Assembly (NCBI RefSeq): GCF_006542375.1
Contig: NZ_CP038143.1
Coordinates: forward strand, 1,550,001-1,614,000
Source: Oecophyllibacter saccharovorans
GTDB taxonomy: Bacteria > Pseudomonadota > Alphaproteobacteria > Acetobacterales > Acetobacteraceae
DNA: 64,000 bases
Direction: 5' to 3'
Positions 612 to 5,101 of this stretch are shown here, piece after piece. How positions within the stretch are numbered: the first letter of the stretch is position 1; each line of letters begins with the position of its first letter. Below the pieces are notes generated by a model. It ran no database searches. It had not been told where the DNA came from and saw nothing but the letters and a program-made list of their open reading frames with translations. A program made the position numbers and the translations under genes.

Positions 612-1043
612 ATGACCGCCCAAACCCCCACGCCCGACAATGCTTCTGCCAACACGCAGCCCTACAGAAGCGGCGCTTTCATGTTCGGCGACCGCCGCAT
701 GACCGTCACCCTGTTTGAACCCCAGACAGACGTCCGCATCGCCCGTGACATGGTCCTGCGCTCCATGATCACCTTTGCGCTGGACCAGTACCTGCTGCAG
801 GACGACGGCCCCGGCCTGCACTGCACGGTATGCAACACCCCATTGGTCAACATCCTGTGCGGCCCAGGCGACCTCACCCTCCTGGTCCGCAGCGCCCACC
901 CGGCCCAACCCACCTACACCTTCTTCTGCGGCAAATGCAGCAACATGGAATCCTTCATGACCTCCCGCGTCTACGCCATCATGAAACAATGCGGCATGAA
1001 CCCGGACCACATCGAACTGAGCCACGAAGCGGCGGAGGGGTGA
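612..1043 (+). CDS. Cys-rich hypothetical protein, paralogue B
   Basis: 143 residues, family not recognised. It has the same architecture as the preceding gene: polar N-terminus, beta-rich segment, CTVC near residue 76 and CGKC near residue 107, then a C-terminal helix (FMTSRVYAIMKQCG). Paired CxxC motifs suggest a structural zinc site. The last 163 bases (881-1043) recur at 1733-1895 with six mismatches, so a third copy of this family once stood downstream. A purine-rich stretch (GGGAAAGCG, 601-609) precedes the ATG and may serve as a weak ribosome binding site. GC content is chromosomal up to the stop codon, where it drops sharply. Confidence 0.7.
   Translation: MTAQTPTPDNASANTQPYRSGAFMFGDRRMTVTLFEPQTDVRIARDMVLRSMITFALDQYLLQDDGPGLHCTVCNTPLVNILCGPGDLTLLVRSAHPAQPTYTFFCGKCSNMESFMTSRVYAIMKQCGMNPDHIELSHEAAEG
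881..1043 (+). repeat. 163-bp direct repeat, copy 1 (copy 2 at 1733-1895)
   Basis: Direct repeat of about 96 percent identity (6 mismatches counted by eye), spaced 852 bases apart. Copy 1 is the 3' end of an intact gene and copy 2 is the gene remnant. The two copies flank the AT-rich membrane-protein gene, so homologous recombination between them would delete that gene precisely. Confidence 0.9.
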
Positions 1044-1105
1044 AGTTCTCTATTAGAAGAAGCAAACATCTGTTTATATTATAGTCATTTAAGGAGTCTT
1101 CTAGA

Positions 1106-1669
1106 ATGGTTGCCTTGCCACCTGTTGCCCCACTTCTGTTGTTTTTAGCGCTCTATGGCTTCTGTCGCGGCTATTTAAATCCTCTCATTAGAGGGATCAG
1201 TAAAAAAATTTACCAAAAAAATTTCCAGAATACCGCGGAATTTATTATGGGCGGGAATCCTCAGAAATTTAGAAGAAAGCTCAGAGCTGCAATCATTTTT
1301 GAGACAAATTCATCTGAATACAGCGGGATTTTAGAAGGAAATGTAACAAAGAAAGAAAAAACCGAGATTGGTGAAGAAATATTAATAGAGACTCTCGAAA
1401 AATACTCTAAAAATTTGTGCCGCTCGGGAAATTGGATAACCATAATTACAATTTCATTAACGGCTCAGTATTTTTCAACGAAAATTCCCTTTTTAAAATC
1501 TATATTGGAAGCTACGAAAATAATTGAAATTTCAACTTCTCTTCCAAGTAGTCCTCGAGCATTTTTGGTTTATTTTATTATTGGTTGTTTCGGCAGCATG
1601 CTTGGTGGGCTGATTCATCACAGGGGGGTACAGCTAAGAAGAGTGGCTCTGCTGAAGAGTCCATCGTAG
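1106..1669 (+). CDS. AT-rich hypothetical membrane protein
   Basis: 187 residues, no family recognised. Three hydrophobic segments are visible: about residues 5-22, 112-132 and 153-173. A basic, Lys/Asn-rich soluble stretch separates the first from the second. The ATG follows AAGGAG (1091-1096) with nine bases between, and an AT-rich TATATTATA stretch at 1074-1082 could be a promoter -10. Base composition is far more AT-rich than the flanking genes, and codon use (AAA, ATT, TTT) differs accordingly, which indicates transfer. It lies between paralogue B and a broken copy of paralogue B, so it sits where a third paralogue's 5' part was lost. Confidence 0.6.
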   Translation: MVALPPVAPLLLFLALYGFCRGYLNPLIRGISKKIYQKNFQNTAEFIMGGNPQKFRRKLRAAIIFETNSSEYSGILEGNVTKKEKTEIGEEILIETLEKYSKNLCRSGNWITIITISLTAQYFSTKIPFLKSILEATKIIEISTSLPSSPRAFLVYFIIGCFGSMLGGLIHHRGVQLRRVALLKSPS

Positions 1670-1712
1670 GCGGAAATTACCTAACAAACCGTCTTGCAGC
1701 TTTACAAGCTGA

Positions 1713-1895
1713 GCGACTACGGCGCCCCCTTTCCTGGTCCGTAGCACCCACCCGGCCCAACCCACCTACACCTTCTTCTGCGGCAACTGCAGCAACACGG
1801 AATCCTTCATGACCTCCCGCGTCTACGCCATCATGAAACAATGCGGCATGAGCCCGGACCACATCGAACTGAGCCACGAGGCGGCGGAGGGGTGA
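1713..1895 (+). pseudogene. Truncated third copy of the Cys-rich paralogue
   Basis: Positions 1733-1895 match 881-1043 (3' end of paralogue B) with six differences in 163 bases, including the shared stop codon. The frame is open only from 1713 and has no plausible start codon, so the N-terminal half with its CxxC motif is gone. The retained part keeps CGNC in place of CGKC and the C-terminal helix. The substitutions are mostly transitions and do not break the frame, so truncation is recent or the fragment exchanges with paralogue B by gene conversion. The missing 5' half coincides with the AT-rich gene just upstream. Confidence 0.75.
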
Positions 1896-2184
1896 AACAA
1901 TAGTCTTTAGGCCATGAAAAAGAAGAGGGATGGAAATAAACGCAAAATCTAGGTAGATTACTAAATCTGTCTGAATATTTTTTTAATTTTCCTATACGAA
2001 GACAGTTAGTGAATTAGTTTTCAGCCACCTGGGCCATCAGCTTAGCTTATAGAAAAGAGCAGATTTCTCAGGCCTTGAGCAGAAGGCACGACACCAAAAG
2101 CGTAGAAGTCAGCATCGAATTTCTATGGATTTGCATCGGGGCTTAACGTGTTATCAGCTGTTCAAGATACCATGAGGATATGCG
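1896..2184. other. AT-rich non-coding gap before the three-gene operon
   Basis: 289 bases with no credible gene: the longest frame starting with a good codon is a 12-codon one near 1914. It presumably holds the promoter of the operon that begins at 2185. A short inverted repeat TAAC-GT-GTTA lies at 2144-2153, about 30 bases before the start codon, and could be an operator for the XRE-type protein of the operon. That link is only a guess from position. Confidence 0.4.
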
Positions 2185-2763
2185 TTGACATTTATATCAA
2201 CAACTGAGAGGGTTCTTGAAGCTCTGAGGAAGAGCGGTAGATTCATGATAGTGGAGCCGTCTCAAACTATATTAAATCTTGCGTCTCAAGAAGGTTGGAC
2301 ACCAAGAGTCGTTCTTATTACGCCCGAATGCGATGAATGGATCATGCGGTTAAATGTTGATCCTGACAAACCCCCGCATCCGAAAAAATACTCAGGATTG
2401 AAGCCAAGAGAATTAGCTAATGGTTTTCTAGAACGATTAGCCGGTGGAGCAAAGGATGCTTATAATTTAAAAGCGCAGGAGGGCGGTTCGGGACCTTTTT
2501 TGCGTATCCGCGAGAGCCGGAAGTGGAAGTTAGCTGTTTATGAAGCACGTCTTTCCCATATCCGCTTATTCTGTCTCATTCCACAGCCAGGCATATTTTT
2601 GTTTGTGCTGGGTCAGTGGAATTGTCTTTTGCATGCCTCCAATCCTAAACCTGCGGAACATACTCATGAGGAATGTGCTAAAAAGGTAAAGGATTTCGCC
2701 TTACAACATCTTTCTCCTTTGGGTCTTCAATTTCCAGGATATAAAAATGATGAATTGCTATGA
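2185..2763 (+). CDS. Putative RelE/HigB-superfamily toxin-like protein
   Basis: 192 residues. The C-terminal half (about 105-178) follows the layout of RelE/HigB/Gp49-like toxins: a strand with basic residues (LRIRESRKWKLAVYEAR), two hydrophobic strands (IRLFCLI, IFLFVLGQW), then a charged helix (ECAKKVKDFAL). The N-terminal 80 residues are extra and unrecognised. If the assignment holds it would be an mRNA interferase; no catalytic set can be confirmed by eye. Start is TTG at 2185 with GAGGA (2174-2178) upstream; the ATGs at 2172 and 2180 run into stops at once. The 3' end overlaps the next gene, which encodes a helix-turn-helix protein, by 17 bases. That toxin-first order with an XRE partner is typical of HigBA. 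Strongly AT-rich, so probably acquired. Confidence 0.5.
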   Translation: MTFISTTERVLEALRKSGRFMIVEPSQTILNLASQEGWTPRVVLITPECDEWIMRLNVDPDKPPHPKKYSGLKPRELANGFLERLAGGAKDAYNLKAQEGGSGPFLRIRESRKWKLAVYEARLSHIRLFCLIPQPGIFLFVLGQWNCLLHASNPKPAEHTHEECAKKVKDFALQHLSPLGLQFPGYKNDELL

Positions 2764-3238
2764 TAATAATTCTCAGGCTGTCTGGAAAACAAAGGGTTTT
2801 CGGCGCCGTGTTCTGAGTCCAGAAGAAGAAGCCGAAGGGCGGAAAGCCTGGCTGTTTGCGCGTGTTAAAGGTTTAATTCGTGAGCGCATGAATGAGCTGG
2901 GAAAGAGCTTAGAAGAACTGGGGCAGCGTATGGGGGGGCGAAATAAGGCCAGTCTTTCCCGGTCTTTGAAAGCTGGTGCTGATATGCGTCTTTCCACTAT
3001 GTATGAGTTTGCTGAAGCTCTAGGTATGGAATGGCATCTGGAGCTGCGCGCAAGAGCACAGAAAAGAAGTTCAATTAATTTTGAGGCGCTTGATATTTAT
3101 CCAGCAGCTTTTTGGGCTTCGCAATTCGAACAAGATTCAATGCCAATATCTGAGGACGAATTACATCAGAGTTTAGCAAAAAATATGGATAATTTAAAAG
3201 AAAATCGAGTAAATCAGGAACGCGTCGATGCGCTCTGA
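2747..3238 (+). CDS. XRE-type helix-turn-helix protein, putative antitoxin
   Basis: 163 residues. Residues about 38-100 form a Cro/CI-like helix-turn-helix: a first helix (VKGLIRERMNELG), the HTH pair (SLEELGQRMG, then NKASLSRSLKAG) and a following helix ending in MEWHLELRA. It has a basic N-terminal arm (residues 14-22) and a C-terminal extension of about 60 polar residues that could bind and neutralise the upstream protein. It overlaps the upstream gene by 17 bases and the downstream gene by 11 bases, so the three are one translationally coupled unit. AGGAT precedes the ATG; a second ATG at 2750 is also possible. By analogy with HigA it would repress its own operon, which is inference. Confidence 0.65.
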   Translation: MMNCYDNNSQAVWKTKGFRRRVLSPEEEAEGRKAWLFARVKGLIRERMNELGKSLEELGQRMGGRNKASLSRSLKAGADMRLSTMYEFAEALGMEWHLELRARAQKRSSINFEALDIYPAAFWASQFEQDSMPISEDELHQSLAKNMDNLKENRVNQERVDAL

Positions 3239-3746
3239 AGAAGAATCTGGAAATTTTCCCAATTTCATTTTAGCTAATGCCTATATTTGTGATGCTGCAA
3301 CTTTTGGAAAAAACGTTGGCATCGCTGCTCTTGGCGTGACTACTGCCATAGTTAGTACATTACCGGGAAAATTTACTTCTCTTGCTTGTTTTGGGACGAT
3401 AGTTCATCAAGGTCATGAGCCTATTGAAGTGGAAATGTGCTTACGCATTTTGAAAAATGAAAAAGCTTATGGACTGACAAAGGTTCGTTTCGTTCCCACT
3501 GGTCCCATACCAGGCATGTTTGTGGTCACATTTTCTAGTCCGATAAATCTACCCCAACCTGGATTATATACAATTTGCTATCGAGTGGTTGGTATGAAAA
3601 ACTGGACTATTTGTGGAAATTTTAATCTGCTTCCACCACCGCCCAAGCCCCTAAACGAAACGATGCAGAAATTGCAAAAACTACGCACTGATCCGGATTT
3701 TATTGAGGCTTACAGACGCTTTGTCGCGGATTATTTGAATAAGTAG
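3228..3746 (+). CDS. DUF6941-like hypothetical protein, third gene of the operon
   Basis: 172 residues. The start (ILANAYICDAATFGKNVGI) and the later beta-rich pattern ending in a G-x-Y strand (QPGLYTICYRVVG) resemble DUF6941 proteins, whose function is not known to me. A Pro-rich linker (LLPPPPKP, about 137-144) separates this beta domain from a helical C-terminus (QKLQKLRTDPDFIEAYRRF). Neither signal peptide nor membrane segment is seen. The ATG lies inside the end of the XRE gene (11-base overlap), preceded by AGGAA, so it is made together with that protein. A beta-sandwich protein tied to a toxin-antitoxin-like pair may be a sensor, adaptor or second antitoxin. The family call is from pattern memory and is tentative. 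Confidence 0.5.
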   Translation: MRSEEESGNFPNFILANAYICDAATFGKNVGIAALGVTTAIVSTLPGKFTSLACFGTIVHQGHEPIEVEMCLRILKNEKAYGLTKVRFVPTGPIPGMFVVTFSSPINLPQPGLYTICYRVVGMKNWTICGNFNLLPPPPKPLNETMQKLQKLRTDPDFIEAYRRFVADYLNK

Positions 3747-3840
3747 TCATGATTTTCTAAGCTTTTCCATCTATTTTTATTTTCTTGAAAAAAGGAAGAG
3801 GGCTTTATTAAATCGCAAAGGTGAAAACTAGTAGTTAATC

Positions 3841-3868
3841 TTGACAATAAAGCAAAATTGCTTATAAA
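3841..3868 (+). promoter_or_regulatory. Near-consensus sigma-70 promoter with palindrome in its spacer
   Basis: TTGACA at 3841-3846 and TATAAA at 3863-3868 are 16 bases apart, close to the bacterial consensus. The spacer holds an inverted repeat, AAGCAA (3850-3855) and TTGCTT (3858-3863), that touches the -10 element. A repressor bound there would block RNA polymerase. It points at the gene starting at 3904, whose Shine-Dalgarno-like GAGAGGA is at 3890-3896. Confidence 0.7.
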
Positions 3869-3903
3869 TCCCCTCGCAGGCCCATTGCCTGAGAGGACCC
3901 CTG

Positions 3904-4236
3904 ATGCGCACCACCGTTCCCCTCACCAGGGAAGACCACCGTGCCCTGCACTATGGCAAGCTGCTGCTGCGCCGGGGCGGGCCGTATCATCCCGAGCATG
4001 AGGCGCAGCTGCACAAGGTCTACATGGATCATTGTGCAGAAATGGCTGAGCGCATTTTTGAAAAATCCGTCTCCGATGCCTTCGCCGATGCTGCCTGCGC
4101 CGCCGAAACGCTTGAGGCTGTGATCACAGTCAATGATTGCGGCGGGGAAGGGGACGCGGAAGAGTTCTGCCCCCACAACACCGCCGCCAGCCGCGCCGGC
4201 TATTGCGGCGCCCCGGGAATGGAAGCACGGGCCTGA
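3904..4236 (+). CDS. Hypothetical protein, 110 residues
   Basis: Family not recognised. The N-terminal two thirds is charged and helical (about residues 8-70), including HPEHEAQLHKVYMDHCAEM, and the C-terminal third holds four of its six cysteines (about residues 61-105). No signal peptide or membrane segment. It is GC-rich again, unlike the operon before it. The near-consensus promoter at 3841-3868 and the GAGAGGA ribosome site seven bases before the ATG support it as a real gene. It converges on the small minus-strand gene at 4247-4405. Confidence 0.55.
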   Translation: MRTTVPLTREDHRALHYGKLLLRRGGPYHPEHEAQLHKVYMDHCAEMAERIFEKSVSDAFADAACAAETLEAVITVNDCGGEGDAEEFCPHNTAASRAGYCGAPGMEARA

Positions 4237-5024: not shown

Positions 5025-5101
5025 TGGTGGACCCAGCAGGATTCGAACCTGCGACCTCTGCCTTCGGAGGGCAGCGCTCTATCCAGCTGAGCTATGAGTC
5101 C
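5025..5101 (-). tRNA. tRNA-Arg (anticodon CCG)
   Basis: The minus strand folds as a full tRNA. Acceptor arms GGACTCA and TGGGTCC pair with one G-T wobble. The anticodon stem is CTGCC/GGCAG with loop CTCCGAA (anticodon CCG, reading CGG). The T arm contains GGTTCGAATCC. The 3' CCA is encoded (5025-5027). It borders the accessory patch on its left, and tRNA genes often serve as integration sites, but no integrase gene or repeat of its 3' end was found in the window. Confidence 0.95.

Follow-up and report, generated by a model that had tools for sequence, protein, structure and literature searches.

To our knowledge, SecB-like proteins are the only specialised partners through which an antitoxin comes to depend on a third component, and CmdC of the CmdTAC system is such a SecB-like chaperone. 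In toxin-antitoxin-chaperone (TAC) modules the SecB-like chaperone binds a variable C-terminal extension of the antitoxin, and SecB occurs together with HigA, MqsA and HicB antitoxins (PMC5105189). In CmdTAC the toxin CmdT is an mRNA ADP-ribosyltransferase and the third component has been proposed to act as an infection sensor, newly made capsid protein releasing CmdC (PMC11618068).

Here we compare with these systems a three-gene locus located in a 64,000-nucleotide stretch (the window) of the 1.94 Mb genome of Oecophyllibacter saccharovorans. The assignment of genes 1 and 2 to a toxin-antitoxin (TA) pair is well supported by the gene architecture and the modelled fold. For the locus as a whole we incline, by a narrow preference, to a tripartite type II TA module resembling TAC, with an Ig-like protein that would take the place of the SecB chaperone and bind the antitoxin tail.

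Organization of the locus

The trio consists of three intact open reading frames (ORFs) on the + strand, and the overlaps of 17 nt (genes 1 and 2) and 11 nt (genes 2 and 3) given in a preliminary description of this DNA are confirmed. The features are as follows, with the evidence in brackets:

2172-2184, + strand: AGGA, a Shine-Dalgarno-like site, and the spacer up to the TTG start of gene 1 (sequence)
2185-2763, + strand: gene 1, RelE/HigB-fold toxin-like protein, 192 aa, TTG start (ORF, AlphaFold2 model, fold matches, family hhalign)
2299-2736, + strand: RelE/HigB-like part of gene 1, residues 39-184 (model matches, family alignment)
2747-3238, + strand: gene 2, HTH protein, probable antitoxin/repressor, 163 aa (ORF, weak HTH_3 match, PHROG match, family HMM 22.8 bits)
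2876-3025, + strand: HTH region of gene 2, residues 44-93 (weak HTH_3 match, PHROG match)
3023-3235, + strand: C-terminal tail of gene 2, 71 residues, candidate docking site for gene 3
3228-3746, + strand: gene 3, divergent DUF6941-type protein, 172 aa (ORF, relatives, AlphaFold2 model with pLDDT 87.8)
3264-3632, + strand: Ig-like β-sandwich of gene 3, residues 13-135 (model)
3648-3740, + strand: two-helix C-terminal extension of gene 3, residues 141-171 (model)

The TTG start of gene 1 is credible because an AGGA lies 6 nt 5' of it and the N-terminus of the protein aligns with the family N-terminus LTyMaTl. Sigma-70-type promoters and terminators predicted in the AT-rich island did not exceed those in shuffled sequences. 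The GC content of the trio is 42.8% vs. 65.9% for the window, where stretches of trio length do not fall below 61.4% from position 4000 on, and GC3 is 32-37% in the trio genes vs. 70-85% in two flanking ORFs. The AT-richness ascribed to the trio is thus real, but the patch extends beyond it, from about 1044 to 3900, and also holds an AT-rich ORF at 1106-1669. This ORF is bracketed by a 165-nt direct duplication (96%; window positions 880-1044 and 1732-1896) that corresponds to the end of the upstream orphan gene, and the arrangement has the appearance of an insertion during which the end of the gene was copied. GC-rich orphan genes lie at 81-569 and 612-1043. A search for relatives of the second gave a further one in the same genome, immediately before the window begins, and no match in 24 other genomes. 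A tRNA-Arg (CCG) is found at 5025-5101, approximately 1.1 kb downstream of the AT-rich patch.

The toxin-like protein of gene 1

The AlphaFold2 model of gene 1 (pLDDT 79.4, pTM 0.78) has the RelE/HigB fold that the preliminary description had anticipated, and matches RelE/HigB toxins over residues 38-184. The best VIA match is HigB of S. pneumoniae HigBA (Z 9.3, 110 residues, rmsd 3.3), RelE/HigB-superfamily toxins make up nearly all of the best 50 VIA rows, and the first Foldseek matches are likewise RelE/HigB proteins (best E 6.1e-3, probability 1.00). The RelE-like part begins at residues 38-40, which leaves an N-terminal addition of about 38 residues rather than the 80 originally estimated. 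At the sequence level, none of the RelE-type Pfam models (HigB, RelE, ParE, Gp49) matches gene 1 or any of 22 relatives, and Pfam and PDB sequence searches with gene 1 gave nothing relevant, also when the family profile was used. The gene 1 family gave no significant hhalign result against individual Gp49-like or RelE-like toxins taken from other DUF6941 loci, and so the link of gene 1 to RelE is one of fold.

Among 56 distinct relatives, Arg-127 is invariant (56/56), position 122 is Lys or Arg in 53 and position 120 is Glu or Asp in 48. Gene 1 of the window retains Glu-120, Arg-122 and Arg-127, at catalytic-type positions as judged by alignment and spacing only. The catalytic set of HigB-TAC comprises E66, R68, R77 and K95 (PMC9098466), and from alignment and spacing we propose that gene 1 has positions equivalent to these. 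A Lys or Arg follows the last strand in 54 of the 56 relatives, where the window protein has His-150; because of this substitution and its distance from the rest of the family, the window protein could be weak or inactive. Gene 1 is a probable mRNA-cutting toxin, and its relatives may represent a toxin family that annotation now labels hypothetical.

Members of the HigBA/RelE superfamily of type II TA systems share with this locus a toxin gene in first position, an overlapping gene for an XRE-type antitoxin, the RelE fold and the E-x-[KR]-x4-R pattern at catalytic-type positions. They differ from it in the N-terminal addition and the third gene found here, and in that no sequence match to the HigB, RelE, ParE or Gp49 models links the present family to them.

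The probable antitoxin and its C-terminal tail

Gene 2 adjoins gene 1 in the same direction and, to judge from its sequence and position, is a probable antitoxin/repressor. Its earlier description as an HTH protein with a long tail agrees with the match to a PHROG transcription regulator (3.1e-5) and with the 71-residue tail, but the HTH_3 score of 12.3 bits is below the Pfam cut-off of 23.

Antitoxins with a DUF6941 gene behind them have tails of 32-97 aa (median 60, n=43), while those without a third gene have tails of 29-41 aa (n=4, two loci being near-identical). The difference gives a Mann-Whitney p of 8e-4, or 3e-3 without near-duplicates, in a post hoc comparison that ignores kinship. 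Locus L085 is an exception to this trend, with DUF6941 present and a tail of 32 aa, and L059 combines a long tail with a different third gene. A tail Asn is present also in loci without DUF6941. These lengths lend weak support to a tie between the antitoxin tail and the third gene. A TSTSP-like motif was seen by eye in the tails of some sequences and is not claimed as a feature.

The DUF6941-type protein of gene 3

The AlphaFold2 model of gene 3 is an all-β Ig-like sandwich followed by two C-terminal helices. Its matches in the PDB are mixed Ig/E-set-like domains, namely the Wzt carbohydrate-binding domain, PDE6D, RhoGDI, and glycosidase and adhesin domains, and therefore the fold alone gives no function. 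The Ig-like sandwich is a common fold and by itself no sign of peptide binding or chaperone activity. The SecB family (PF02556) showed no match up to E=1 for gene 3 of the window or for the related proteins of L003 and L011, and no SecB structure was among the matches listed for gene 3 in the ranked lists, which leaves room for a more distant similarity.

DUF6941 (PF22091), the family suggested earlier for gene 3, turned out to be the right one, although the connection runs through relatives and not through a direct Pfam match. A Pfam search with the window protein gave no DUF6941 match at the gathering score of 27 bits, and its nearest relative, in L003, reaches 22.7 bits and is also below the cut-off. 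Gene 3 is tied to the family by hhalign (E 6e-7) and by BLASTP to L003 (5e-11), and relatives within trios do reach PF22091, for example L011 with 35.2 bits. The C-terminal helical extension is an addition of the window protein. No mention of DUF6941 was found in the literature searched. An uncharacterised protein of Anoxybacillus phage A403 has the fold of gene 3 (Foldseek E 1e-7, TMt 0.72), hinting, at the level of modelled structure, at relatives in Firmicutes phages.

Recurrence of the three-gene arrangement

With gene 1 as sole query, no relatives outside this genome were found in the genome, viral and plasmid collections, because gene 1 is too divergent; access to the family came through gene 3 and genome G146. 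A search with gene 3 led to one relative in another genus, in this genome, where the three-gene order is kept and gene 3 has 26% identity. The expectation that the three genes travel together was borne out, since the trio recurs far beyond this genome and often on plasmids and prophages.

Searches starting from DUF6941 yielded 39 distinct loci in which the upstream sequence could be read, and their ORF tables were sorted by reading. The order toxin-like protein, HTH protein, DUF6941 was found in 28 of them. In a further five, DUF6941 stands behind another TA pair, with ParE in L008, Gp49 in L024 and DUF4258 plus an MqsA-like protein in L023; the toxin-like proteins of L027 and L081 were judged by eye. 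One locus (L073) has the HTH and DUF6941 genes without a toxin, so that TA-type operons account for 34/39, and five (L004, L015, L021, L022 and L082) have DUF6941 without TA genes. Candidate L009 proved to be a false positive, lying within a long ORF of an unrelated kind, and was discarded. With the gene 1 family as query, further trios came to light in plasmids, genomes and viral contigs, and three of these trios were re-checked with family HMMs. The same searches gave a few pairs of gene 1 family and HTH proteins without DUF6941 (L044/L045, L054, L065) and one locus (L060) with gene 1 and DUF6941 but no HTH gene. The toxin and antitoxin genes overlap in all trios measured, and across loci the reading frames of genes 2 and 3 usually overlap or abut.

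Family HMMs built without the window and G146 scored the window proteins at 12.4 (gene 1), 22.8 (gene 2) and 12.1 bits (gene 3), compared with 6.2, 13.8 and 7.8 bits for the respective best shuffles, and hhalign of gene 1 against the family gave E 3.5e-5 over 121 columns. Singly these matches are less secure, but because the three weak matches occur in the same order and on the same strand, the membership of the window trio in the family is secure.

In several loci the toxin gene is damaged and the antitoxin and DUF6941 genes are kept: there are in-frame stops in L013 (3056-3574)/L069 and in L055, the gene is apparently split in L087, and it is absent in L073. For L013/L069, L055 and L073 this is the usual pattern, in which the toxin is lost and the neutralising part kept. 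Two variants concern the other genes. In L059 (373-1026) a 217-aa third gene without a Pfam match stands in the place of DUF6941 behind a TA pair of the same type, and in L066 (1640-3136) the HTH ORF continues into a 498-aa protein with a large uncharacterised C-terminal part.

Proposed mode of action and alternatives

How close is the trio to TAC? As in the M. tuberculosis HigB1-HigA1-SecB-TA system, the order is toxin, HTH antitoxin, third protein; the toxin has the RelE/HigB fold, the gene 1 model matching HigB1 with a VIA Z of 8.6; the antitoxin carries a variable C-terminal extension; and the third protein is common to several TA families (here the gene 1 family, ParE, Gp49 and DUF4258/MqsA-like). 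On the other hand, the third protein is of the DUF6941 type, with an Ig-like sandwich as its model and no SecB Pfam match, the toxin family lies outside all RelE-type Pfam models, and chaperone action is conjectural here. Because the SecB feature is absent by the sequence test, we do not file the module as a member of TAC. CmdTAC resembles the locus in being a tripartite TA system, but neither an ADP-ribosyltransferase toxin nor a SecB-like chaperone is seen in the window trio. This combination of a TAC-like architecture with an apparently unrelated third protein is the reason why we propose an Ig-like control protein that would bind the antitoxin tail, suggesting a previously undescribed kind of TA system with an extra control protein.

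What the results establish is the gene order and its recurrence, the folds of genes 1 and 3 at the level of models, and the occurrence of DUF6941 behind TA pairs with toxins of several families. Toxicity, neutralisation, tail binding, antitoxin dependence and a release trigger are all properties that we infer, as is the role of the third protein. The gene 1 toxin is predicted to cleave mRNA on the ribosome, and the HTH antitoxin would bind the toxin and repress the operon. Gene 3 is predicted to hold the long, variable tail of gene 2, and only in the presence of gene 3 would the antitoxin remain stable and active. Loss of gene 3, or its titration (for example by a component of an incoming phage), would make the antitoxin fail and free the toxin. 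In a wider and more tentative reading, for which we see somewhat less than an even chance, DUF6941 would be a second family of control proteins dedicated to TA systems, distinct from SecB. Spread by prophages and possibly sensing phage, these Ig-like proteins would capture the tails of unrelated antitoxins and make the antitoxins dependent on them, and gene 1 would found an unlisted RelE-fold toxin family. If this is true, a structurally different protein fills the place of SecB after several toxin families, antitoxin dependence evolved more than once, and the uncharacterised family DUF6941 gains a role and the list of toxin families an additional entry.

Could gene 3 instead be a co-transcribed passenger, or an independent accessory, of a classical two-component HigBA-type pair, with no control over the antitoxin? 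The pairs of gene 1 family and HTH proteins without DUF6941 and the five DUF6941 loci without TA genes would fit such a view, but we regard it as unlikely, since DUF6941 belongs to TA-type operons with different toxins in 34 of 39 distinct loci, genes 2 and 3 usually overlap or abut, and the antitoxins of loci with DUF6941 have the longer tails. The window copy might also be a decaying remnant, with a catalytically dead toxin and with the antitoxin and gene 3 retained as regulators. His-150 in place of the conserved Lys/Arg points in this direction, as do the interrupted toxin genes of L013/L069 and L055 and the lack of one in L073; against it, all three window ORFs are intact with their overlaps kept, and Glu-120, Arg-122 and Arg-127 are still there, and we doubt that decay describes this copy.

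The remaining alternatives concern what the module is for. The sensor or defence role put forward in the preliminary description is one that may be inferred for the trio, and by analogy with the proposal for CmdC, gene 3 might be the phage sensor of a prophage-borne abortive-infection system, whose Ig-like protein would bind a phage protein and so activate the toxin. Frequent residence in prophages, beside a repressor or in the packaging cluster, and the release of the third component by capsid protein in CmdTAC (PMC11618068) speak for this role, although PADLOC gives no defence-system match at the window; we consider it rather improbable as a full account, but it is compatible with the tail-binding control protein that we favour and does not exclude it. 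Maintenance of plasmids or prophages by addiction, with no defence function, would suit the trios found in viral contigs and on plasmids of Rhizobium and Bosea. However, the large chromosomal contigs that carry the window copy and several relatives show no evident plasmid or phage genes near the locus, which makes pure addiction distinctly unlikely.

Hosts and genomic context

The trios are hosted by alphaproteobacterial chromosomes, plasmids and prophages. The same-family genome G213 has the same locus as Roseicella (Acetobacterales according to NCBI). No phage records similar to gene 1 of locus L029 were found. An S24-peptidase repressor is encoded directly upstream in seven trios, and one trio lies between terminase and portal genes. 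In L041 (3-3564) the trio has a terminase-like ORF on one side and, on the other, the 3' part of this ORF repeated almost identically. Trios on plasmids, where annotated, read as hypothetical protein, XRE or HTH regulator, hypothetical protein. Two of the plasmid trios, L092 and L091, are near curli-type genes, which encode CsgG, CsgF and CsgH in Rhizobium and CsgG/HfaB in Bosea.
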